From NCBI GenBank assembly GCA_016871055.1, contig VFZW01000026.1:1-32608 (forward strand): a stretch of 32,608 nucleotides of DNA, in the 5' to 3' direction. The stretch comes from Acidobacteriota bacterium. GTDB lineage: Bacteria > Acidobacteriota > Terriglobia > Bryobacterales > Bryobacteraceae. The stretch's first letter is position 1; each line of letters begins with the position of its first letter. The translations under genes were made by a program, and so were the position numbers. Below the pieces are notes generated by a model, which ran no database searches, was not told where the DNA came from, and saw only the letters and a list, made by a program, of their open reading frames with translations. Of this stretch, positions 21,221-31,961 are shown piece after piece.

Positions 21221-22792
21221 CTACTCCACCCCAAACACCAACAGCACATGCCGCGCCGAGATCGCCACATACTGCTTCCCATCCACCTTGTAGGTGATCG
21301 GATTCGCCACGATCCCGCCGCCCGCCTCGAACCGCCACAGTAGATCCCCCTTCGAGGCATCGAGCGCAAAAAACGACGTCCCGTTCGACCCAAACACTAA
21401 CCCCCCAGCTGTTGTCATCAAGCCCGCGTGCGACGGCACATGCAGCCGGTACTCCCACTTCATCTCGCCGGTGACAACATCCAAAGCCCGCACCGCGCCC
21501 CATGGCTGCTCCGCCTTATTCGGCCTTTGTCCGCCGCCATTGAAGAACGACCCGGCTTTGAACTCCGCCGCGCCTTTGATGTAGTACGCGCCTTCCTCTT
21601 TCGCGTTGACATAATAAAGCCCCGTTTGCGGACTAAACGTCGACGCATACCAATTCGACCCGCCCCCAAGGCTCGGATACAGCAACACCCCCGCTTCTGT
21701 CGGCGTCGTATTCGGCAGCCGCATCGGCCGCCCCGATTCATCGAGCCCGCTCGCCCACGTCTGCTTCACGAACGGCCGCCCCGCGACGAACTTACCGGAA
21801 ACTCGATCAATCGAATAATAAAATCCGTTTCGATTCGCCAGCACCACTAACTTCCGCTTTTGCCCGCCAACCACGCCATCCGCCAATATCGGCGTCTGCG
21901 TGGAATCCCAGTCGTTCACATCGTGCGGCGTATATTGAAAATGCCACTTCAACTTACCGGTTGACGGGTCCAACGCCACTAAGCTGCTGGAATACAAGTT
22001 ATCGCCTTTGCGCCCATCGCCATTCCAATCCGGTCCCGGATTCCCTGTCCCCCACAGCAGTGTATCGGTCTCGGGATCGTACACGCCAGTTACCCAAGTC
22101 GTCGCCGCGCCCGTCTTGTAACTCTCCCCGGCCCACGTCTCCGCACCCGGCTCGCCTTTGTCGGGTATCGTGTAAAACCGCCATGCGCGTTTGCCGGTCT
22201 TCGCGTCATAGGCGTCGATAAACCCACGCACGCCGAACTCTCCGCCCGCGATGCCGGCGATGACTTTGTCTTTCACCACCAACGGCGCGCCGGTTCCAGA
22301 AAAACCAACCTTTGGATCGGCCATCACGACATCCCATCGCACCGCGCCGGTATTCGCGTTCAACGCCACCAGGTGCGCGTCGATACTCCCGTAATAAACC
22401 GTGTCGCCGAGGATCGCCACCCCGCGATTTACCCTTCCGCAGCATCCGCGAAAGTCGTTGCCGATCTCCCGTCGATAAGTCCACAGCACACGCCCAGTCT
22501 TCGCATCCAGAGCCTCGACAATATTCGGCGGCTTGGTAATGAACATCACGCCATCGGCCACAATCGGCGACGCCTGCACCGTCTCCGTCTCGTTGGCCTG
22601 ATTCATCCACGCCACCCGCAACTTACTCACATTGCCGGTATGGATTTGATCGAGCGGCGAATATCTTTGCCCCGAATAGTTTCTCGAGTACGTCAGCCAG
22701 CTCCCCGGCTCGGCATCGGCATTCAGAATTCGCTCGTACGGCACATTCACCTGCGCCAGCAATACCGGAGTTAAGAACAATAGCAGTCTCAT
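21221..22792 (-). CDS. PQQ-dependent alcohol dehydrogenase (quinoprotein), D-x-D type
   Basis: A 523-residue periplasmic quinoprotein. ATG 22792 overlaps the cytochrome stop by ATGA and gives MRLLLFLTPVLLAQ, a signal peptide. The eight-bladed propeller shows in W-docking repeats such as ALDAKTGRVLW, AYDAKTGKRAW and ALDPSTGKLKW. C117-C118 is the vicinal disulfide of the active site; E185 and N251 (GTGNPG) fit the metal site; D294 is the catalytic base in TPHDVNDWDSTQ. D296, two residues later, matches the extra Asp (D-x-D) that marks lanthanide-dependent enzymes, where calcium enzymes have a small residue. The alcohol substrate is unknown. Electrons probably go to the diheme cytochrome encoded just before it. 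PQQ synthesis genes are not in the window. Confidence 0.92.
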   Translation of the reverse strand: MRLLLFLTPVLLAQVNVPYERILNADAEPGSWLTYSRNYSGQRYSPLDQIHTGNVSKLRVAWMNQANETETVQASPIVADGVMFITKPPNIVEALDAKTGRVLWTYRREIGNDFRGCCGRVNRGVAILGDTVYYGSIDAHLVALNANTGAVRWDVVMADPKVGFSGTGAPLVVKDKVIAGIAGGEFGVRGFIDAYDAKTGKRAWRFYTIPDKGEPGAETWAGESYKTGAATTWVTGVYDPETDTLLWGTGNPGPDWNGDGRKGDNLYSSSLVALDPSTGKLKWHFQYTPHDVNDWDSTQTPILADGVVGGQKRKLVVLANRNGFYYSIDRVSGKFVAGRPFVKQTWASGLDESGRPMRLPNTTPTEAGVLLYPSLGGGSNWYASTFSPQTGLYYVNAKEEGAYYIKGAAEFKAGSFFNGGGQRPNKAEQPWGAVRALDVVTGEMKWEYRLHVPSHAGLMTTAGGLVFGSNGTSFFALDASKGDLLWRFEAGGGIVANPITYKVDGKQYVAISARHVLLVFGVE

Positions 22793-23526
22793 TCGGAATC
22801 CTTCAACGACGCCAGGTAGGCGACAACATCGGTCAACTCGTCTTCGGAAAACGTGCCGCGGTACGACGGCATCGGCGACACTCCTCGCTGCTTCCGCAAC
22901 TCCGCCAACTCTGATTTCCAATACGAATGCACTTTCCCAGACGCATCCCGGACCTGAATCGAAAACGAGTCCTCATTCACCCGCACACCCGTTACGTTCC
23001 CGCCGCTTCGAGGCACAGCCGTGACCAACAGATACCCGTCCGGCACCGCCGATTCCGGTGTCAGTAACGCTTCGCGCAAATACACCGCGCTACGCCGCGA
23101 GCCAACGCCCTGCAACGCCGGCGCCGTAAATCCAGCGTCATGACAACCCGCGCAACCGCCTTTTGTCCGATACAACTCCGCGCCGCGCGCTGCATTGCCC
23201 GGTACCGGTTTAATAGCCACGCGCCCCAACGTCCGGGCATAAGCCGCCGTCTGCCGGATCTCGCGCTCCGACATCGAATGCGCCCCCAGCATCTCCGTGC
23301 CGCCAATGCCGTGTTCGATCACGCGGACCAGCGCGGCGTCGTCGGCAGCCCGCGCAAACCGGGGTTTCGTCAACACCGGCCCTCGTCCGCCTTCGCCCGT
23401 CTGCCCATGACACAGCGCGCACTGATTCTCATACAACTTCCGGCCCGCCGCCAAATCCGCGCGGCCAGTCGGCAACTTCACAACCTCGGCCGCCAGAACC
23501 ACCGCGCCAAAAAGTGCAAGTTTCAT
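22789..23526 (-). CDS. Diheme cytochrome c, partner of the PQQ dehydrogenase
   Basis: A 245-residue periplasmic cytochrome starting at ATG 23526 (signal peptide MKLALFGAVVLAAE). Two heme-binding motifs are present: C36-A-L-C39-H40 and C125-A-G-C128-H129. A likely distal Met is in GTEMLGAHSM for the first heme and in SPMPSYRG for the second. The middle part (VTGVRVNEDSFSIQVRDASG, KSELAELRK) is the domain found between such hemes in acidobacterial proteins next to PQQ enzymes. The end FSEDELTDVVAYLASLK is a typical cytochrome c helix. It is the first gene of a two-gene operon and probably takes electrons from the dehydrogenase toward a terminal oxidase. Confidence 0.93.
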   Translation of the reverse strand: MKLALFGAVVLAAEVVKLPTGRADLAAGRKLYENQCALCHGQTGEGGRGPVLTKPRFARAADDAALVRVIEHGIGGTEMLGAHSMSEREIRQTAAYARTLGRVAIKPVPGNAARGAELYRTKGGCAGCHDAGFTAPALQGVGSRRSAVYLREALLTPESAVPDGYLLVTAVPRSGGNVTGVRVNEDSFSIQVRDASGKVHSYWKSELAELRKQRGVSPMPSYRGTFSEDELTDVVAYLASLKDSE

Positions 23527-23535
23527 CCTGCAAAG

Positions 23536-23565
23536 ATTGTATCCTCGCGTCGATCTCCCTGTCGA
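23536..23565 (-). promoter_or_regulatory. Promoter of the cytochrome c-PQQ dehydrogenase operon
   Basis: TCGACA (minus strand, 23560-23565), an 18-nt spacer, then TACAAT (23536-23541). The -10 ends 9 nt before ATG 23526, so transcription would begin 0-3 nt before the start codon. Confidence 0.55.
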
Positions 23566-23600
23566 AGCCGCAGGATGCGACCGGCCCCTCATCCCGTTGC

Positions 23601-23606
23601 TATACT
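23601..23606 (+). promoter_or_regulatory. -10 element of the ispH-hopanoid operon
   Basis: TATACT at 23601-23606, 14 nt before ATG 23621; the predicted leader is about 7-8 nt. No convincing -35 is seen. It is the only candidate promoter for eight genes, because no later gap exceeds 5 nt. Confidence 0.45.
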
Positions 23607-23620
23607 GAGATTTAACACCT

Positions 23621-24604
23621 ATGGCATCAGGGACCGCCACCGTAACGGCTGAAAAGAAGATCGTACTGCTCACGCCCCGCGGCTTCTGCGCTGGCGTCGT
23701 GCGGGCGATCGACGTCGTGAAAATCGCGCTCGACACCTTCGGCGCGCCCATCTACGTCCGCAAGGAAATCGTCCACAACAAACACGTCGTCGACGAACTG
23801 CGCGAACTCGGCGCCATCTTCGTCGACGAACTGGTCGAGGTGCCCAGCGGCGCGCGCGTCATCTTCAGCGCCCACGGCGTCTCTCCGGCGGTCCGCGCCG
23901 AAGCCAAAACGCTCGATCTCAAAGTCATCGACGCCACCTGCCCGCTCGTCACCAAGGTCCACCTGGAAGCCGTGAAGTTCGCGCGCCAGGGTTACACGAT
24001 CGTCTTGATCGGCCACGAGAACCACGACGAAGTTATTGGTACTCTGGGCGAAGCCCCGGACGCTATGGTCCTCGTGCAGACCGTCGAAGACGTCGATAAG
24101 TTGCAAGTCGCGGACGAGTCGAAAATCGCATTTCTTACGCAGACGACCTTGTCGCTTGACGAAACCAGCCACATCGTCGCCCGGCTTCGCGAGCGCTTCC
24201 CGCTCATCAACGGTCCGCATTCGCAAGACATCTGCTACGCCACGGAAAACCGTCAGGTGGCCGTCAAAGCCGTCGCGCCAATGACCGAACTCCTTCTCGT
24301 CGTCGGCTCGAAGAACTCGTCCAACTCGCAGCGCCTTGTGGAAGTCTGCCGCAAGGAGGGCCGCCCGGCGTACCTCGTTGACGACGAATCGGACGTCCGT
24401 TCGGAGTGGCTGAATGGCATCAACTCCGTTTCGGTCACCGCCGGCGCTTCGGCGCCCGAGCACCTCGTCGATAGTCTCATCGCCTTCCTGCAGCGCAGCG
24501 GCTTCGGCGATGTCGAAACATTGGAAGTGAAGGAAGAGGACGTTCGCTTTTCCTTGCCCCCGGAGTTGAATTCCGCGCGTCTGACGCAGATCCGTACCGC
24601 GTAG
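23621..24604 (+). CDS. ispH: 4-hydroxy-3-methylbut-2-enyl diphosphate reductase
   Basis: A 327-residue iron-sulfur enzyme, the last step of the MEP pathway, giving IPP and DMAPP. The three cluster cysteines are C23 (TPRGFCAGV), C107 (IDATCPLV) and C205 (DICYATENRQ). FSAHGVSP and GHENHDEVIGT hold the substrate-site His and Glu residues. Some 12 residues before KIVLLTPRGFC are extra, but ATG 23621 is the only ATG before the conserved core. It is 3 nt from the squalene-hopene cyclase gene, so precursor supply and hopanoid formation share a transcript. Confidence 0.96.
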   Translation: MASGTATVTAEKKIVLLTPRGFCAGVVRAIDVVKIALDTFGAPIYVRKEIVHNKHVVDELRELGAIFVDELVEVPSGARVIFSAHGVSPAVRAEAKTLDLKVIDATCPLVTKVHLEAVKFARQGYTIVLIGHENHDEVIGTLGEAPDAMVLVQTVEDVDKLQVADESKIAFLTQTTLSLDETSHIVARLRERFPLINGPHSQDICYATENRQVAVKAVAPMTELLLVVGSKNSSNSQRLVEVCRKEGRPAYLVDDESDVRSEWLNGINSVSVTAGASAPEHLVDSLIAFLQRSGFGDVETLEVKEEDVRFSLPPELNSARLTQIRTA

Positions 24605-24607
24605 AAA

Positions 24608-26524
24608 ATGAGCCCGACCTTGCAGATGACGGATGCGGGCGCAGCCGGAGCGGCGTCGGCCATTCGGCGCGCTTCGGAGTGGTTGCTCTCGCAGCAGAGC
24701 GAAAAAGGCTACTGGTGGGGAGATCTCACCGCCGACACCACGCTCGAGTCCGACTACATTTACTTGCAGCTTTGGCTGTATGAACCGAACGAGCGCGGCT
24801 GGAATCCGCCCACCCGCCCGCAAATCGACCGCGCAGCCCGCTCGATCCTCGCGCGCCAAAACGCAAGCGACGGCGGCTTCTCTATCTATCCTGGCGGTCC
24901 CGCCGATGTTAGCGCTTCGGTAAAGGCGTACTTCGCGCTCAAAGTCGCCGGCATCGATCCCGCTTCGTCCGAAATGACGCGTCTGCGGAACTGCATTCTG
25001 TCACTCGGCGGACTGCAAGCCTGCAACAGCTACGTCAAAATCAACCTCAGCCTATTCCGCCTCTATCCGGCCGCCGACGTGCCCTCGGTGCCGCCCGAAA
25101 TGATTCTCATGGGCGACATGCTCTACCACATGAGCGCGTGGGCGCGCGCTATCGTCGTGCCACTTGCCATCGTGCAATCGATGCTCCCGGTGAAGGCGCT
25201 CCCGCCTGGGTTTTCGCTCGACGAAATCCTGGCGCCGGGTGTATCCACGGCCTTCCCGAACCCTGATGGACCGCTTTCGAAAAAGGGCTTTTTCCTCGCT
25301 CTCGACAAATTGTTCAAAGTCTGGGAACGGCACGGTTCGGACATGTTGCGCGGCAAGGCGATCGCCAAGTGCAAAGACTGGGTGCTGACGCGCACGCAAC
25401 ACTCCGACGGCCTCGCCGCCATCTACCCGCCGATGATGTACACCATCATGGCGCTCGATGTCATGGGCCACGATGAGAACGATCCCGCCCGCATCGAAGC
25501 CGAACGCCACCTCGACGATCTCATGGTCGACGACGGCAATCGCTTCTTCTTCCAGCCCTGTTTCTCGGTCGTCTGGGACACGGCAATCGCCATGCACGCG
25601 CTCGCCGAAGCCGGCACGGCGCCGCCCGAACGGCTGCAACTCGCCGCCGATTGGCTCATCTCGAAAGAGGTTCGCCGCAAGGGCGATTGGTCCAAGCACC
25701 GCCCGAACACCGAGCCCTCCGGCTGGTACTTCGAATTTGCCAACGAGTTCTACCCCGACATCGACGACACCGGCATGGTGATGATCGCCCTCGGCCTCGT
25801 CAAAGGCCGCGACGCTGCCGCTCACGGCGCAACTTCCAAACGCGCCGTGCAATGGTTGTTCGACATGCAGGCCTCGGACGGCGGCTGGGCGGCCTTCGAT
25901 GTCGATAACAACTGGCCCGCGCTGACCCACGTTCCATTCGCCGACCACAATGCAATGCTCGATCCCACCTGCCCCGATATCAGCGGCCGTGTGCTCGAAT
26001 GCCTCGCGCTGCACGGCGTCGATGTGAATCACGCGGCGATGCGCAAGGGTGTCGAGTATCTGATCCGCACGCAAGAACAGGACGGCAGCTGGTTCGGCCG
26101 CTGGGGCGTCGACTACATCTACGGCACCTACCTCGCGCTGCGCGGCCTGCGTGCCGCTGGGGAAAGCGATCGCGAAGTGCACACGCTTCGAGGCGGCGAA
26201 TGGCTGCGCTCGATTCAGAACGCCGATGGCGGTTGGGGCGAGAGCTGCGAAAGCTACGCCAAGAACACCTACGTCAACGCACCCTCGACGCCGTCGCAAA
26301 CCGCTTGGGCCATCCTCGGCCTGCTCGCCAGCGGTGACGATCGCAGCGATTCACTCGAACGCGCCGCCGACTACCTGGTCAAAACCCAGCGCCCGGACGG
26401 CACATGGGACGAACCGCAGGCCACGGGCACCGGTTTCCCGCGCGTGTTCTATCTCAACTACCATATGTACCGGAACTCGTTTCCGCTGCTCGCGCTCGCG
26501 GCGTTCCTGAAAACGCGGGCGTAA
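24608..26524 (+). CDS. shc: Squalene-hopene cyclase
   Basis: A 638-residue class II triterpene cyclase that folds squalene to hopene and diplopterol at the membrane. The catalytic acid motif D384-I-D386-D387-T388 (FYPDIDDTGMV) is intact. QW repeats run through the sequence, for example DGGFSIYPGG, DGGWAAFDVDNNW, QEQDGSWFGRWGVDYIYGT, NADGGWGESCESY and RPDGTWDE. The end (FYLNYHMYRNSFPLLALAAF) is the usual C-terminus. It could be called hpnF in hopanoid nomenclature. It is 3 nt after ispH and 1 nt before hpnA. Confidence 0.97.
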   Translation: MSPTLQMTDAGAAGAASAIRRASEWLLSQQSEKGYWWGDLTADTTLESDYIYLQLWLYEPNERGWNPPTRPQIDRAARSILARQNASDGGFSIYPGGPADVSASVKAYFALKVAGIDPASSEMTRLRNCILSLGGLQACNSYVKINLSLFRLYPAADVPSVPPEMILMGDMLYHMSAWARAIVVPLAIVQSMLPVKALPPGFSLDEILAPGVSTAFPNPDGPLSKKGFFLALDKLFKVWERHGSDMLRGKAIAKCKDWVLTRTQHSDGLAAIYPPMMYTIMALDVMGHDENDPARIEAERHLDDLMVDDGNRFFFQPCFSVVWDTAIAMHALAEAGTAPPERLQLAADWLISKEVRRKGDWSKHRPNTEPSGWYFEFANEFYPDIDDTGMVMIALGLVKGRDAAAHGATSKRAVQWLFDMQASDGGWAAFDVDNNWPALTHVPFADHNAMLDPTCPDISGRVLECLALHGVDVNHAAMRKGVEYLIRTQEQDGSWFGRWGVDYIYGTYLALRGLRAAGESDREVHTLRGGEWLRSIQNADGGWGESCESYAKNTYVNAPSTPSQTAWAILGLLASGDDRSDSLERAADYLVKTQRPDGTWDEPQATGTGFPRVFYLNYHMYRNSFPLLALAAFLKTRA

Positions 26525-26525
26525 C

Positions 26526-27488
26526 GTGAAGCCTGTTCTCGTCACAGGCGCGTCGGGATTTGTCGGCTGGCACGTCGCGCGGCTTTTGTCCGAACGCGGG
26601 TTCGCCGTCCGCGCGATGACCCGCGGTATTAACCCTGTACCCGAGCTGAATGTCGAAGTCGTCAAGGCGGATCTCACCGATCGCACTTCGCTCGAAAAGG
26701 CCGTCGAAGGCTGCTCCGCCGTCTTTCATGTCGCCGCCGACTATCGTCTCTGGGCCAAGGATCCTCGCGAGCTGTATGCGTCAAACGTCGACGGTACACG
26801 CGCGCTGTTCGAAGCCGCCCGCGCCGCGCGGGTTGATCGCGTCGTCTACACCTCCACTGTCGGTTGCATCGGTTTCATCGACGGCGGACTCGGCGACGAA
26901 ACCACGCCCGTATCGCTCAACGACATGACCAGCCACTACAAGCGTTCGAAGTTTCTCGCCGAGCAAGTTGCGCTCGAATTCGCGGCCTCGGGTTTGCCGG
27001 TCGTCATCGTCAATCCCACCGCGCCCGTCGGCGACCACGACTTCAAACCGACCCCGACCGGCCAAACCATCGCCGATTTTCTCCGAGGCAACATGCCCGC
27101 CTATCTCGACACCGGCCTCAATATCGTCGATGTCCGCGACGTCGCGCTTGGCCATCTGCTCGCATTCGAAAAAGGCCGCCCCGGCGAACGCTATATCCTG
27201 GGATCGGAGAACCTGACGTTAAAACAAATCTTTGAAGTTTTGTCTTCTCTCAGCGGAGTCAAGGCGCCGTCGATCGAAATCCCGTACTTCGTCGCCTGGC
27301 TCGCGGCGGCTGCGGGCGGCGCGATATCGTCGTTCACCGGCAAGCCACCCCGCGCCCCCATGGAAGGCGTACGCATGGCGCGCAAGAAGATGTGGGTCCG
27401 TCATGACAAAGCCGCGCGCGAACTAGGCTTCTCTCCACAGCCTGCCCGAATCGCGTTGCAGAATGCCTACGAGTGGTTTCGGAAATGA
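26526..27488 (+). CDS. hpnA: Hopanoid-associated NAD(P)-binding sugar epimerase/DFR-like protein HpnA
   Basis: A 320-residue extended SDR. GTG 26526 follows the cyclase stop after one base and gives KPVLVTGASGFVGWHVARLL, the G-x-x-G-x-x-G cofactor site. The active site is T-S-x-x-Y-K-x-S-K (MTSHYKRSKFLAE). VVIVNPTAPVGDHDFKPTP and GERYILGSENLTL follow the HpnA family (dihydroflavonol-reductase-like). HpnA is a regular member of hopanoid loci; its reaction is not established. The gene overlaps hpnG by ATGA. Confidence 0.92.
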   Translation: MKPVLVTGASGFVGWHVARLLSERGFAVRAMTRGINPVPELNVEVVKADLTDRTSLEKAVEGCSAVFHVAADYRLWAKDPRELYASNVDGTRALFEAARAARVDRVVYTSTVGCIGFIDGGLGDETTPVSLNDMTSHYKRSKFLAEQVALEFAASGLPVVIVNPTAPVGDHDFKPTPTGQTIADFLRGNMPAYLDTGLNIVDVRDVALGHLLAFEKGRPGERYILGSENLTLKQIFEVLSSLSGVKAPSIEIPYFVAWLAAAAGGAISSFTGKPPRAPMEGVRMARKKMWVRHDKAARELGFSPQPARIALQNAYEWFRK

Positions 27489-28093
27489 AAACCATTGTCG
27501 CCATCGCCTCCGAGCCCTTCGAATTCAAACCGTGGATCAAGCGCAATCGATCCGTCCACGCCTTCGCCGAAGGCCCCGGCCCGCGCCTCGCGCAACGATC
27601 TCTGCAAACCGCCATCGATCAACTCGGCAAGATCGATGTCCTTCTCAGCATTGGCCTCTGCGGCGCGCTCGACCCCAATCTCCAACTCAACGACATCGTC
27701 AGCGCCACCTTGGTAAACGAGTGGCCCGCCGAGCCGCTCCCCAACGCCAAGAGCGCAAAGCTACTCTCGATCGACCGCTTCCTCGGTAACAAAGAAGAAA
27801 AGCAGAACTTCCACCGGCAGGGCTACGATATCGTCGAGATGGAAGCCGTGGCCCTCGCAAAATGGGCGGCCGAAACAAACACGAAATTCCACGCGGTCAA
27901 GGTCGTCAGCGATCTCGCCGGCGAAGAGTTCGCGCTCGACTTCAACGCCCACCGCGACCCCGATGGCCGCTTCAAGAAAGCGTCAATCGCGCTGGCGGGA
28001 TTGGTGCATCCGCGTGATCTATATCGCATGGCAAGCAGAGGAAGCGCCGCATCGGCGAAACTAGGAGAGTTCCTTTCGAAATATGAGTTCTAA
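27485..28093 (+). CDS. hpnG: Hopanoid nucleoside phosphorylase-like protein HpnG
   Basis: A 202-residue member of the nucleoside phosphorylase superfamily (ATG 27485, ATGA overlap with hpnA). VLLSIGLCGALDPNLQLND is the phosphorylase Gly loop, and YDIVEMEAVALAKWA and VVSDLAGEEFA are the base- and ribose-binding parts. HpnG removes adenine from adenosylhopane, giving (phospho)ribosylhopane, in established pathways. The gene is shorter than many nucleoside phosphorylases, as usual for HpnG. hpnH, which makes the substrate, is not in the window. It overlaps the next dehydrogenase gene by 11 nt. Confidence 0.9.
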   Translation: MKTIVAIASEPFEFKPWIKRNRSVHAFAEGPGPRLAQRSLQTAIDQLGKIDVLLSIGLCGALDPNLQLNDIVSATLVNEWPAEPLPNAKSAKLLSIDRFLGNKEEKQNFHRQGYDIVEMEAVALAKWAAETNTKFHAVKVVSDLAGEEFALDFNAHRDPDGRFKKASIALAGLVHPRDLYRMASRGSAASAKLGEFLSKYEF

Positions 28094-29159
28094 CGGGGTC
28101 ATGCGCGCGGCGGTGTACCGCGGCAACAATCAGGTAGTCGTCGAGGAAGTGCCGGTTCCCGAAATCGGCCCCGGCGAACTGCTCGTCAAAGTTCACTCCT
28201 GCGGCATTTGCCACACGGATTTGAAGAAGGTCGAATACGATCTGCTTCCGCCGCCGCGCATCTACGGCCACGAGACGGCTGGTGTCGTCGTGCGTGTCGG
28301 CGCCGGTGTGACGAAGTTCAATGAGGGCGATCGCGTCGTCGCCTTTCATCACATTCCGTGTGGAAAATGTTTTTACTGCGCGCGGCGTCTCTACGCCCAA
28401 TGCGCGGTTTACAAGAAGGTCGGCATCACCGCCGGCTTCGAACCCGCCGGCGGCGGCTTCGCGCAGTACATCCGCATCATGGATTGGATCGTCGACCGCG
28501 GCGTCGAGCTCATCCCCGACGGCGTGTCCTTTGACACCGCCTGTTTCGTCGAACCCGTCAACACCTGCGTCAAAGCCGTGTGGATGGCCGATCCCCGTCC
28601 CGATGAACTCGCCGTAGTCATGGGGCAAGGCCCCATCGGACTCCTCTTCACGATGCTGCTCAAGCACAAGGGTATCCGCACTGTCGCTACCGACACCATG
28701 CCCGAACGCCGCGCCTTTAGCCAACACTTCGGCGCGTCGGCGTGCTGGGATCCGCGCACAACAGACGTCGCCGCCGAGTGCGCCGCGCTCACCGAAGGCC
28801 GCGGCGCCGACATCGTTTTCATCGCCGCGTCCGCGCCCGGAATCGTCGAACAGGCCATCCGCTGCACCCGCCCCGGGGCGAAAATTCTGCTCTTCGCGCA
28901 GACCTCCGACAAGGAAAGAATCGAACTCTCCGGCAAGGACATCTGTACGGGGGAACGTATGGTTTTCGGTTCGTACAGCGCCGATGTGGACTTGCAGCGC
29001 GTTTCCGCCGATCTTGTATTTAGCGGCGCGATTCCGGTCGGCGAGCTGGTCAGCCACCGTTTTCCGCTTGACGAAATCAGCGCGGGTTTTGACCTGGCGT
29101 TGCATCCGTCGCCAAAATCGCTCAAAATTGTTGTTTGGCCTCAGGGACACGACAAGTGA
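28083..29159 (+). CDS. Zinc-type medium-chain dehydrogenase, first of a pair in the hopanoid operon
   Basis: A 358-residue alcohol/polyol dehydrogenase. ATG 28083 gives SSNGVMRAAVYRG; ATG 28101 is an alternative. The catalytic zinc site is C40 (SCGICHTD), H63-E64 (GHET); the structural zinc is held by C93, C96, C99 and C107 (CGKCFYCARRLYAQC). GQGPIGLL is the NAD(P) loop. The family includes sorbitol and threonine dehydrogenases, and also TarJ-like ribulose-5-phosphate reductases. Its place straight after hpnG, with overlapping starts, suggests a role in processing the ribose-derived side chain of hopanoids (inference). All residues needed for activity are present. Confidence 0.88.
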   Translation: MSSNGVMRAAVYRGNNQVVVEEVPVPEIGPGELLVKVHSCGICHTDLKKVEYDLLPPPRIYGHETAGVVVRVGAGVTKFNEGDRVVAFHHIPCGKCFYCARRLYAQCAVYKKVGITAGFEPAGGGFAQYIRIMDWIVDRGVELIPDGVSFDTACFVEPVNTCVKAVWMADPRPDELAVVMGQGPIGLLFTMLLKHKGIRTVATDTMPERRAFSQHFGASACWDPRTTDVAAECAALTEGRGADIVFIAASAPGIVEQAIRCTRPGAKILLFAQTSDKERIELSGKDICTGERMVFGSYSADVDLQRVSADLVFSGAIPVGELVSHRFPLDEISAGFDLALHPSPKSLKIVVWPQGHDK

Positions 29160-30196
29160 CGCAAAAGATGCAGGCCGCCGTCCTGTATGGCAAGGAAGAC
29201 GTTAAGGTCGAATCGGTAGAAGTGCCGAAGATCGGGCCGGGCGACGTTCTCGTTCGAGTGAAAGCCGCGCTCACCTGCGGCACCGACGTGAAGGTCTTCC
29301 GCCGAGGCTATCATGCGCGCATGATCCAACCGCCCGCGCTGTTCGGCCACGAACTGGCTGGCGATATTGTCGCCGCCGGATCCGCCGTCTCGAAGTTCCG
29401 CGCCGGCGATCGCGTCGTCGCCGCCAACTCCGCGCCCTGCGGCAACTGCTTCTACTGCAAGAAGCATCTCGAAAATCTCTGCGACGACCTGCTCTTCAAC
29501 AACGGCGCTTACGCGGAGTTCATTCGCATCCCGAGCCGCATCGTTGAAAAGAACACGTACCGCATTCCGGCGCATGTCGACTACCAAGACGCGGCCCTCG
29601 CGGAACCGCTCGCCTGCGTGCTCCGCGGCCTCGAAGAATCGCACGTCCGCCCTGGTGACACTGTCGTGGTCATCGGCCTCGGCCCGATCGGACTCATGTT
29701 CGTTCGCATGGCCAAAGTGATGGGCGCTCGCGTCATCGCCATGGCGCGCCGTCATGAGCAACTTGAAGACGCAAGGCGCATGGGCGCGGCGCATCTCGTC
29801 TGCCTGCCGGAGTCCGACGATCCCGTCGGCTTGGTGCGCGGCTTGACCGATGGCCGGGGCGCCGACGTCGTCATCGAAGCCGTCGGCAAACCCGAAGTCT
29901 GGAATCTCTCCGTGCAACTGCTGCGCAAGGGTGGCACGGTGAATTTCTTCGGCGGCTGCCCGAACGATACCCGCGTCGATCTCGACACCAACATGCTCCA
30001 CTACTCCGAGATCACCTGCAAAGCGAGCTTCCATCACACGCCCGGACTGATCCAGGACGCACTCGAAGCCGTCTCCCGCCGCGACATCTGCGCCACCGAT
30101 TTCATCGCCGGTCAAGCGCCGCTGTCCAGTCTCCGCGACGTCCTCCGCATGCTCATGAATTCCAGCGGCCGCCTGAAGACCGCGATCATTCCGTAA
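29156..30196 (+). CDS. Zinc-type medium-chain dehydrogenase, second of the pair
   Basis: A 346-residue paralogue of the previous gene (GTG 29156, GTGA overlap). Catalytic zinc residues C41 (TCGTDVK) and H65-E66 (GHEL) and structural C95, C98, C101, C109 (CGNCFYCKKHLENLC) are kept; VIGLGPIGLMF binds NAD(P). The two proteins share layout but are clearly diverged, so a hetero-oligomer or two successive steps are both possible. Like its neighbour it sits between hpnG and hpnC, a position that suggests work on hopanoid side chains. Confidence 0.88.
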   Translation: MTQKMQAAVLYGKEDVKVESVEVPKIGPGDVLVRVKAALTCGTDVKVFRRGYHARMIQPPALFGHELAGDIVAAGSAVSKFRAGDRVVAANSAPCGNCFYCKKHLENLCDDLLFNNGAYAEFIRIPSRIVEKNTYRIPAHVDYQDAALAEPLACVLRGLEESHVRPGDTVVVIGLGPIGLMFVRMAKVMGARVIAMARRHEQLEDARRMGAAHLVCLPESDDPVGLVRGLTDGRGADVVIEAVGKPEVWNLSVQLLRKGGTVNFFGGCPNDTRVDLDTNMLHYSEITCKASFHHTPGLIQDALEAVSRRDICATDFIAGQAPLSSLRDVLRMLMNSSGRLKTAIIP

Positions 30197-30201
30197 CCGG
30201 A

Positions 30202-31116
30202 ATGCTGGCGCCCAAGGATTTCGTCGAAGACCGCTCCGCCATGGAGCGCGCGTGGCCATTGGAAGAAGCGCTTGCCTACACTCGTTGGATCGCTACGTCA
30301 CACTACGAGAATTTTCACGTCGTCAGCTTCCTGCTGCCCAAGCGCCTTCACCAGGACTTTTACAACGTCTACGCCTTCTGCCGCTGGGCGGACGATCTCG
30401 GCGACGAAATCGGCGACACCGCCGAGAGCCTGCGTCTCTTAAACTGGTGGCGCGCCGAACTGCATCGTTGCTTCGACGGCGCCGCAACACACCCCGTCTT
30501 CGTCGCCCTCGGCCCAACCGCCCGCAAATACAATTTGCCTCGCGATCCCTTCGACGATCTCATCACCGCCTTCGAACACGACCAGCGCGTGATTCGCTAT
30601 CAAAACTGGGACGAAGTCGTCGCTTACTGCAAGAACTCGGCTAACCCAGTCGGCCGCCTTGTCCTTGGCTTGTGTGGATACAACGATGCCGCACGCTGTG
30701 CCTTGAGCGACGCCACCTGTACCGCGCTCCAACTCGCCAACTTCTGGCAGGATGTTTCGGTCGACCTCGAGAAGGACCGCATCTATCTGCCCCTCGATGT
30801 CCTCGCCAAACACGGCGTCTCGGTCGAAGATGTCTACGCGCGCCGCTTCACGCCCGCCTTTGCCTCGGCGATGCAAGAGGTCTGCGGAGTCGCCCGAGAA
30901 CTCTTCGAAAAAGGCCTCGCTCTGCCGCCGATGCTCGACCGCCGCCTCGCGCTCGACATCACGCTCTTCTCGCGCGGCGGCCTCCGCATCCTCGATAAGA
31001 TTGCCTCACAGGGCTACGATGTGCTCTCCGCCCGCCCGCACATCTCAAAGAGCGAACGCGTCGCGCTGCTGCTCAAAACCCTCGTCCAATTCACCTTCGC
31101 CCGAGCCGCGGCATGA
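30202..31116 (+). CDS. hpnC: Squalene synthase HpnC (hydroxysqualene synthase)
   Basis: A 304-residue member of the trans-isoprenyl (squalene/phytoene) synthase family. The two Asp-rich motifs are D64-D65-L-G-D68-E69 (FCRWADDLGDE) and NFWQDVSVDLEKDRIYLP. The N-terminus (YTRWIATSHYENFHVVSFLLPK) is typical of HpnC. In the three-step bacterial route HpnD makes presqualene diphosphate, HpnC turns it to hydroxysqualene, and HpnE reduces this to squalene. It starts 5 nt after the second dehydrogenase and overlaps hpnD by ATGA. Confidence 0.93.
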   Translation: MLAPKDFVEDRSAMERAWPLEEALAYTRWIATSHYENFHVVSFLLPKRLHQDFYNVYAFCRWADDLGDEIGDTAESLRLLNWWRAELHRCFDGAATHPVFVALGPTARKYNLPRDPFDDLITAFEHDQRVIRYQNWDEVVAYCKNSANPVGRLVLGLCGYNDAARCALSDATCTALQLANFWQDVSVDLEKDRIYLPLDVLAKHGVSVEDVYARRFTPAFASAMQEVCGVARELFEKGLALPPMLDRRLALDITLFSRGGLRILDKIASQGYDVLSARPHISKSERVALLLKTLVQFTFARAAA

Positions 31117-31961
31117 TCACCGTCGCCGAGTCTTACGTCTACTGCCGCGAAACCGCCCGCGCTCGCGCCAAGAATTTCTACTATTCCTTCGTCCTCCTTC
31201 GCGACGACCAATGCGACGCCATGTGCGCCATGTACGCCTTCATGCGCTACTGCGACGATCTCAGCGACGAAACCGACACCTCAACCGAAGAAACCATGGA
31301 CGAATGGCGCGCCGATCTGGCCAGCGCGCTAAACGGCAAATACGCCGATCACCCCGTCTGGCCCGCCTTCCACGACGCCGTCAAACGTTACAATATCCCG
31401 CACGAATACTTCCACGCCATGATTGATGGCGTCTCAAGCGATTTGAAGCCCCGCACCATCCACACCTTCGACGATCTTTATCAATACTGCTACCGCGTCG
31501 CCTCCGTCGCTGGACTGACAATCGTTCACATCTTCGGCTTCAAGGACCGCCGCGCACTCGAACTCGCCGAGAAGTGCGGCATCGCCTTTCAGCTAACCAA
31601 CATCCTCCGCGATGTCCGTGAAGACTTCGAAATGGGCCGCGTCTATTTACCCGCCGAGGATCTCGACCGCTTCGGTGTCTCGCCGTCAAATCTTGCCTAC
31701 ACGCCCGATTTCGTCGAACTCATGCGCTTCGAAGCTGCGCGCGCTTTCGACTACTACAATCAATCGATGCCGCTTATCCGCATGGTCGACAAAGACAGCC
31801 GCGCCTCGCTCTGGGCGTTGATTCAAATCTACTACCGCCTCCTGCAACGCATCGAAGCCCACCAATACCGCGTGCTCGATCGCCGCGTGCGGCTATCAAC
31901 GTTTGAAAAGGTGTGGCTTGTGCTGCAAGCCGGAGGCCGCAAACTCGTCGGCGCGTATTAG
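31113..31961 (+). CDS. hpnD: Presqualene diphosphate synthase HpnD
   Basis: A 282-residue squalene/phytoene synthase family enzyme that condenses two farnesyl diphosphates to presqualene diphosphate. Motifs: D48-D49-L-S-D52-E53 (YCDDLSDE) and LTNILRDVREDFEMGRVYLP. Start ATG 31113 overlaps the hpnC stop. It is the last gene of the operon; the stop at 31959-31961 overlaps by 4 nt the end of the opposite HEPN remnant. The expected partner hpnE does not follow. Confidence 0.94.
   Translation: MITVAESYVYCRETARARAKNFYYSFVLLRDDQCDAMCAMYAFMRYCDDLSDETDTSTEETMDEWRADLASALNGKYADHPVWPAFHDAVKRYNIPHEYFHAMIDGVSSDLKPRTIHTFDDLYQYCYRVASVAGLTIVHIFGFKDRRALELAEKCGIAFQLTNILRDVREDFEMGRVYLPAEDLDRFGVSPSNLAYTPDFVELMRFEAARAFDYYNQSMPLIRMVDKDSRASLWALIQIYYRLLQRIEAHQYRVLDRRVRLSTFEKVWLVLQAGGRKLVGAY

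Follow-up and report, generated by a model that had tools for sequence, protein, structure and literature searches.

Hopanoids with C35 side chains give rise to the hopane molecular fossils that serve for reading ancient bacterial life. HpnH and HpnG lead to ribosylhopane, from which bacteriohopanetetrol (BHT) would be reached by the reduction of a carbonyl on the polyol tail; the BHT-forming enzyme, which the initial annotation of the DNA studied here had also described as not identified, is still “not established” in the part of a 2025 paper that treats this step (PMC12583986). HpnA has been proposed to convert ribosylhopane into BHT, and the same 2017 account of acidobacterial hopanoid clusters, by Sinninghe Damsté et al., describes two genes, ug1 and ug2, located respectively after hpnA-hpnG in cluster C and before hpnC-D-E in cluster A, ug2 being “often annotated” as a Zn-binding alcohol dehydrogenase of ~350 amino acids (PMC5462960). 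Here we describe two genes that match these positions, MDR1 (28083..29159) and MDR2 (29156..30196), which encode zinc-dependent medium-chain dehydrogenases/reductases (MDRs) on the + strand of a stretch of 32,608 nucleotides (hereafter the window; contig VFZW01000026.1 of assembly GCA_016871055.1) from an acidobacterium of the Bryobacteraceae. They lie in a run of genes at the right end of the window, ispH-shc-hpnA-hpnG-MDR1-MDR2-hpnC-hpnD.

From their positions, ug1 is probably MDR1 and ug2 MDR2. The passages of the 2017 account on ug1 and ug2 mention neither their paralogy nor their cofactor types (PMC5462960), and apart from ug1/ug2 we found nothing in the open-licence literature that connects these dehydrogenases with hopanoids. 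The neighbourhood was therefore already known, although not to the initial annotation; relative to that literature, what is new is the paralogy of the two genes, their cofactor split, their presence in a second phylum and the existence of carriers without the squalene-hopene cyclase gene (shc). The conserved cofactor split is our chief new observation. We propose that MDR1 and MDR2 may be a co-inherited pair of opposite cofactor types that processes the C35 side chain, MDR2 being perhaps all or part of the ribosylhopane reductase, a reading to which we assign a probability of about 0.45. It draws on sequence-level evidence, namely operon position, zinc sites, cofactor columns, co-occurrence and the separate linkage to hpnA/hpnG and to hpnC, which makes the pair good candidates for the enzymes that finish the sugar-like tail of hopanoids in one branch of hopanoid makers.

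Two paralogous dehydrogenases with different predicted cofactors

MDR1 and MDR2 share 31% identity, and each contains ADH_N and ADH_zinc_N domains that pass the Pfam cut-offs, the complete catalytic zinc ligands of the polyol/threonine dehydrogenase type (Cys-His-Glu) and a complete structural zinc lobe with four Cys. Domains, catalytic zinc and structural zinc place both proteins in the medium-chain zinc dehydrogenase/reductase superfamily, confirming the initial annotation, which had seen two paralogous and catalytically complete MDRs that overlap hpnG and each other inside the hopanoid operon. The overlap between hpnG and MDR1 is indeed 11 nt (hpnG from its ATG at 27485 to its stop at 28093, MDR1 from its ATG at 28083). 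That between MDR1 and MDR2 is 4 nt, which holds because the MDR2 start is taken as the GTG at 29156; if the alternative in-frame ATG at 29168 were the start, the two genes would instead be 8 nt apart.

A scan of named genomes, with a query alignment headed by the MDR1 of an acidobacterium without shc or hpnH matches (G221), provided the best 80 of at least 583 relatives, which come from related genomes and are not independent draws. A hopanoid gene is found within the locus in 75 of these 80 and MDR2 in 72. The catalytic ligands C43, H63 and E157 of MDR1 are kept in 80/80, as are its structural C96, C99 and C107, with C93 in 79/80; in MDR2, H65, E150 and all four structural Cys are kept in 72/72 and the catalytic C41 in 70/72. 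Asp replaces this catalytic Cys in the two other sequences, for instance in the MDR2 of L184 (9223-10269).

The two proteins differ at the column that ends strand beta-2 of the Rossmann fold. This residue is Asp in 34 of 35 MDR1 orthologues and Glu in the other. In 35 of 36 MDR2 orthologues it is Gly, Val or Ala, the next residue being Lys, Arg or Asn and the one after that usually Arg; the window proteins have Asp204 and Ala197-Arg198-Arg199, respectively. The pattern recurs in the named-genome set, which overlaps partly in genomes with the orthologue set (Asp in 80/80 MDR1; Gly, Val or Ala in 71/72 MDR2, L140 being the exception), and in a second phylum, the Armatimonadota (Asp in 20/20 MDR1, Gly in 19/19 MDR2). 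As a usual rule for this fold, an acidic residue at that column goes with NAD(H), and a non-acidic residue together with a basic one goes with NADP(H). MDR1 is therefore predicted to use NAD(H) and MDR2 NADP(H). This split, missed by the initial annotation, sharpens its idea of a reduction plus an oxidation, or of an epimerisation.

No NCBIfam equivalog fits either protein, their best scores being 154–172 bits against cut-offs of 450–458. The best matches, L-threonine 3-dehydrogenase (TIGR00692; 155 and 172 bits, cut-off 458) and scyllo-inosose 3-dehydrogenase IolM (NF041097; 154 and 172 bits, cut-off 450), were consequently rejected, as neither MDR1 nor MDR2 is a member of these families. Profile matches in the PDB comprise ketose reductase (1e3j), 4ej6, and sorbitol, xylitol, arabinitol, galactitol-1-phosphate and threonine dehydrogenases. 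Sorbitol dehydrogenase and NADP(H) ketose reductase (1pl6, 1e3j) are among the best PDB relatives by both profile and structure (24–29% identity), and 1e3j aligns with MDR2 in having a small residue and then Arg at the cofactor column, but the MDR pair differs from them in an operon context that points to a lipid-bound polyol. AlphaFold2 models of each protein alone (mean predicted local distance difference test score of 93.2 for MDR1 and 92.5 for MDR2) have as top structural matches the NADP-bound 4ejm for MDR2 (Z 44.6, root-mean-square deviation 1.5, 334 aligned residues, 33% identity) and 4ej6 for MDR1 (Z 41.1, root-mean-square deviation 2.3, 338 aligned residues, 29% identity). This structure, the closest for both, is a putative zinc-binding dehydrogenase of Sinorhizobium meliloti with no function listed, and a common fold is no proof of function. 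The TarJ-type ribulose-5-phosphate reductase, the precedent put forward by the initial annotation, exemplifies MDR chemistry on a five-carbon sugar; TarJ is absent by name among the listed NCBIfam and PDB matches of MDR1 and MDR2, no direct comparison with it having been made. A plasmid-borne relative of MDR2 (46% identity) adjoins genes for a sugar kinase and a class II aldolase.

Distribution and linkage to hopanoid genes

With a threshold of 342 bits, which retains 46 of the 53 places listed, MDR1 is present in 46 of 297 Acidobacteriota genomes, the next score being only 226 bits. MDR2, counted from 351 bits upwards (48 of the 64 places listed), accompanies it in every one of the 46 and is adjacent to it in 27. 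As could be expected of a ribosylhopane reductase, hpnA or hpnG lies beside MDR1 in 44 of the 46 genomes (the exceptions are G066 and G221) and hpnH is present in 42, with no match in G211, G113, G282 and G221 (G211 and G282 are less than 90% complete). MDR1 has hpnA on the same strand within 2 kb in 42/46 and an hpnG match within 300 nt in 31/46, and hpnA occurs in 45/46. For hpnA, 76 of 80 listed places were kept, the other four being under the family cut-off; for hpnG, 34 of 107 were kept, as only matches on the MDR1 contig were counted and those on other contigs in nine MDR1 genomes were left out. Fisher tests of co-occurrence with MDR1 give p = 7e-32 for hpnA and 2e-25 for hpnH, on counts that are not independent because the genomes are related.

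The order shc-hpnH-hpnA-hpnG-MDR1-MDR2-hpnC-hpnD is found in both sister genomes from the same family as the window (G187, G289) and in one genome of family f50 (G095). Nineteen of the 46 genomes, which all belong to family f2, have MDR2 away from MDR1; there, MDR1 lies less than 300 nt from hpnG in 19/19 and MDR2 is directly 5' of hpnC in the seven examined. Thus, where the pair is broken up, each dehydrogenase retains a hopanoid neighbour of its own, which speaks against passenger genes. In family f28, eight of the nine loci examined read ispH-hpnA-MDR1-MDR2-hpnD, continued by shc in G113 and G274, and the ninth (G188) shc-hpnH-hpnA-MDR1-MDR2-hpnC-hpnD-hpnE, with no hpnG between hpnA and MDR1 in any of them. 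Named Edaphobacter strains have MDR1 after hpnG in their hopanoid clusters (L163, L164, L168), and the dehydrogenase pair in such strains offers a small and concrete system with two genes, two cofactors and one substrate.

Some variants of these operons deserve mention. Near the pair, f28/gp18-type operons (L120, L140, L158, L169, L085, L089) have hpnD and some also shc, with no hpnC or hpnE labelled in these six loci, some of which end at contig ends; L134/L088, with hpnC-D-E, are the exception among operons of this type. Judging from frame length and score, hpnC and hpnD seem fused into one frame of ~640–660 amino acids in L156 (10184-12115), L170 (10131-12101) and L190 (4076-6019). An hpnC-hpnD fusion has been reported for subdivision (SD) 2 acidobacteria (PMC5462960).

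In trees that included the weaker MDR pairs of families f45, f25, f32, f60 and f77 as outgroups, the branches of MDR1 largely match those of MDR2. The hopanoid-linked acidobacterial copies of MDR2 form one group (98 in the Shimodaira-Hasegawa-like approximate likelihood ratio test, SH-aLRT), apart from the f39/Vicinamibacteria copies and from more distant pairs, a grouping that the MDR1 tree does not resolve. Such a separate MDR2 group suggests that the pair probably predates its place in the acidobacterial hopanoid operon.

The pair extends to the Armatimonadota, where 27 of 201 genomes contain an MDR1 relative at E 1e-60, and this relative is at least 48% identical in 22. One of these 22 is a Chthonomonadales metagenome-assembled genome (G297, locus L132) that has the pair on one contig and the cluster shc-hpnH-hpnA-ispH-hpnG on another; the hpnH search in this phylum covered this genome alone. 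Twenty further loci were examined, leaving out G488, where the match is cut by the contig end, and five weaker matches. Both MDRs occur in 19 of the 20, and in six (G338, G457, G377, G433, G384, G332) the pair is 5' of hpnC-D-E or hpnD, before hpnD alone in G332, with a gap of ~0.8–0.9 kb in G384 and G332 and a single gene separating MDR1 from MDR2 in G457 and G433. HpnC is above its cut-off in the single locus of this phylum that was scored. The hpnC/D-linked loci are scattered across the branch of the phylum, and the linkage would therefore be either ancient, with frequent losses, or acquired repeatedly. The intervening gene encodes 282 amino acids in two hpnC-D-E operons (L229:9749-10597, L234:7776-8624), and its product in L229 has no Pfam or NCBIfam match. 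Among the other 14 loci, those of G359, G428 and G473 have the same surroundings, which include radical SAM genes that score 30–43 bits against the HpnH model; those of G359 were rejected as HpnH, being members of other families.

Possible roles of the pair

If the pair processes the C35 side chain, HpnH would yield adenosylhopane, HpnG would remove its adenine, and the open-chain ribose carbonyl would sit on the MDR2 zinc and be reduced with NADPH to BHT. With NAD+, MDR1 would act on the adjacent secondary hydroxyl (C34, C2 of the polyol), fixing its oxidation state or configuration; alternatively, it could be a partner subunit. HpnA, a short-chain dehydrogenase/reductase (SDR), would probably belong to the same set of steps. 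The fold, zinc site and predicted cofactor of MDR2 suit the reduction of the ribosylhopane carbonyl. A bolder version, in which MDR2 with its NAD-linked partner MDR1 would be the first genetically identified ribosylhopane reductase and the pair would set the C34 configuration in one branch of Acidobacteriota and in some Armatimonadota, other hopanoid makers using an unrelated enzyme, appears doubtful. Were MDR2 the reductase of its lineage, other hopanoid lineages must use a different one. The distribution of the pair suggests that the BHT step or the C34 stereochemistry may depend on different enzymes in different lineages, which bears on BHT isomers as biomarkers.

Several observations weigh against a side-chain role. 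Of the 76 Acidobacteriota genomes with hpnH, 34 lack MDR1, and a universal BHT reductase was rejected on this count. They include three genomes of family f32 (G096, G123, G165; 3.7 Mb, 2 contigs), which in size and replicons look like Chloracidobacterium, a genus for which BHT derivatives have been reported (as cited in PMC5462960). In family f28, hpnA and not hpnG is directly 5' of MDR1 in 12/12 genomes. The tie between MDR2 and hpnC suits squalene synthesis as well as it does the side chain, and sorbitol-type MDRs act mostly on secondary hydroxyls and ketones, not on C1 aldehydes. The five loci without a hopanoid gene among the best 80 are three from Vicinamibacteria (L116, L118, L139), one from an unplaced acidobacterium (L117) and the armatimonadotal L132; shc and hpnH had no match at 1e-40 in the genomes of L116, L117, L118 and L139, whose completeness is not given, and G221 likewise has the pair with no shc or hpnH match. 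A gene of the proline dehydrogenase family is directly 5' of the pair in G066, G221, L116 and L117. Lastly, we found nothing on the stereochemistry of acidobacterial BHT in the open-licence literature. The initial annotation had opposed to its own proposal a pair located mainly away from hopanoid genes, which is not what Acidobacteriota and the best 80 relatives present, whereas 14 of the 20 armatimonadotal loci have no hopanoid gene near the pair. Its view of the two proteins as enzymes of the ribosylhopane step thus survives in part: they are of polyol type and tied to the operon in a large clade and in part of a second phylum, but they are not the general answer.

Other genomes without MDR1 add some detail. 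Some of those with hpnH, f32 included, have a weaker relative of MDR2 (43–46% identity), and no hopanoid gene lies beside the two f32 copies examined (L098, L099). In the MDR1-free operon of G108, the two genes 3' of hpnG belong to luciferase-like and pyridoxal phosphate-dependent decarboxylase families, with no dehydrogenase. G007, which lacks hpnA, hpnG, MDR1 and MDR2, was dropped as a natural experiment since an hpnD match is also absent and its contig meets a transposase-like open reading frame (ORF) shortly after hpnH and then ends. We gave no weight to G273, without hpnG or MDR1 matches, as its hpnA contig stops ~500 bases past hpnA.

An oxidation with NAD+ beside a reduction with NADPH is a classic route for inverting a hydroxyl, and sorbitol-type enzymes work on C2 of polyols. 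MDR1 might accordingly oxidise a hydroxyl of BHT, most simply at C34, and MDR2 reduce the resulting ketone from the other face; the product would be a BHT stereoisomer and the ribosylhopane reductase another enzyme. Such a two-step inversion would account for the conserved opposite cofactor types and for the many hpnH genomes without the pair, and 34R and 34S isomers of BHT are known, poorly separated by liquid chromatography in one survey of Alphaproteobacteria (PMC12583986). We nevertheless regard it as rather unlikely: some carriers of the pair have no shc match, and the literature just mentioned offers no acidobacterial stereochemistry to support it, the 2017 survey having degraded bacteriohopanepolyols to hopanols (PMC5462960), by which, we infer, C34 was lost. 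A role at the squalene stage beside HpnC, HpnD and HpnE, for example on hydroxysqualene, would instead explain why MDR2 stays directly before hpnC even when apart from MDR1 (seven of seven examined), why six armatimonadotal pairs precede hpnC-D-E or hpnD, and why G221 and G298 (the genome of L118) have hpnC/D/E-like genes and no shc match, the pair of L118 (4487-7610) adjoining genes for a polyprenyl synthase domain protein and a lycopene cyclase-like protein. This seems improbable, since separated MDR1 copies remain with hpnG, both MDRs resemble polyol dehydrogenases, three carriers of the pair (the genomes of L116, L117 and L139) gave no hpnD match at 1e-30, and HpnD, HpnC and HpnE are enough to make squalene (Pan 2015, as cited in PMC5462960).

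The pair and HpnA, which belongs to a sugar-epimerase SDR family, could also modify a sugar or cyclitol attached to BHT. The best NCBIfam match of MDR2 is scyllo-inosose 3-dehydrogenase, and acidobacteria of SD1 and SD3 have hpnI and hpnJ without hpnK (PMC5462960). With the MDR2 score far under the IolM cut-off, we consider such head-group chemistry very improbable. Finally, MDR1 and MDR2 could be general polyol or amino-alcohol dehydrogenases of some other pathway whose genes are carried along in the operon, as might be surmised from the apparent greater age of the pair in the trees, from the other neighbours at most armatimonadotal loci, and from the solitary and proline-dehydrogenase-linked pairs of Vicinamibacteria-like genomes (the latter at L092:5581-8617, L093:6056-9276, L116 and L117, three of these four genomes having no shc or hpnH match). 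Because the adjacency is conserved within one clade at two distinct hopanoid loci, and recurs in part of a second phylum, a chance passenger is in our judgement highly unlikely.

The window operon

The run of genes begins with ispH (23621..24604, +), which encodes HMBPP (4-hydroxy-3-methylbut-2-enyl diphosphate) reductase and matches an NCBIfam equivalog above its cut-off. It continues on the same strand with shc/hpnF, the squalene-hopene cyclase gene (24608..26524; TIGR01507, 615.5 bits, cut-off 431), and hpnA, for a hopanoid-associated SDR “sugar epimerase” (26526..27488; TIGR03466, 445 bits, cut-off 368). After the dehydrogenases come hpnC, of the squalene branch (30202..31116, +; TIGR03464, 339.8 bits, cut-off 250), and hpnD, for presqualene diphosphate synthase (31113..31961, +; TIGR03465, 267.8 bits, slightly under the cut-off of 278.6). 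No hpnE is seen before the contig ends at 32608, so it may be merely cut off.

The hpnG gene (27485..28093, +) encodes a divergent putative adenosylhopane phosphorylase/nucleosidase of 202 amino acids, which scores 88.8 bits against TIGR03468, far under the cut-off of 187.1 that none of the 297 Acidobacteriota genomes passes. Aligned with 12 other acidobacterial HpnG-like proteins, including those of the sisters G187 and G289, it is ~20 residues shorter in its N-terminal half.

In both sister genomes (L075, L076) hpnH lies between shc and hpnA, a spot where the window genome has none. Its hpnH is on another contig of the same assembly (7.14 Mb, 713 contigs), at G000:C113:5217-6311 (L074), and scores 527 bits, against 413–422 bits for those of the sisters; transfer, replacement or a binning error are possible reasons for this displacement. 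It is followed by an ORF of 134 amino acids at the ug3 position, placed there by position and not by homology. Upstream of the hopanoid run, on the - strand (21221-23751), the window contains genes for a pyrroloquinoline quinone-dependent dehydrogenase of the methanol/ethanol type and a c-type cytochrome.

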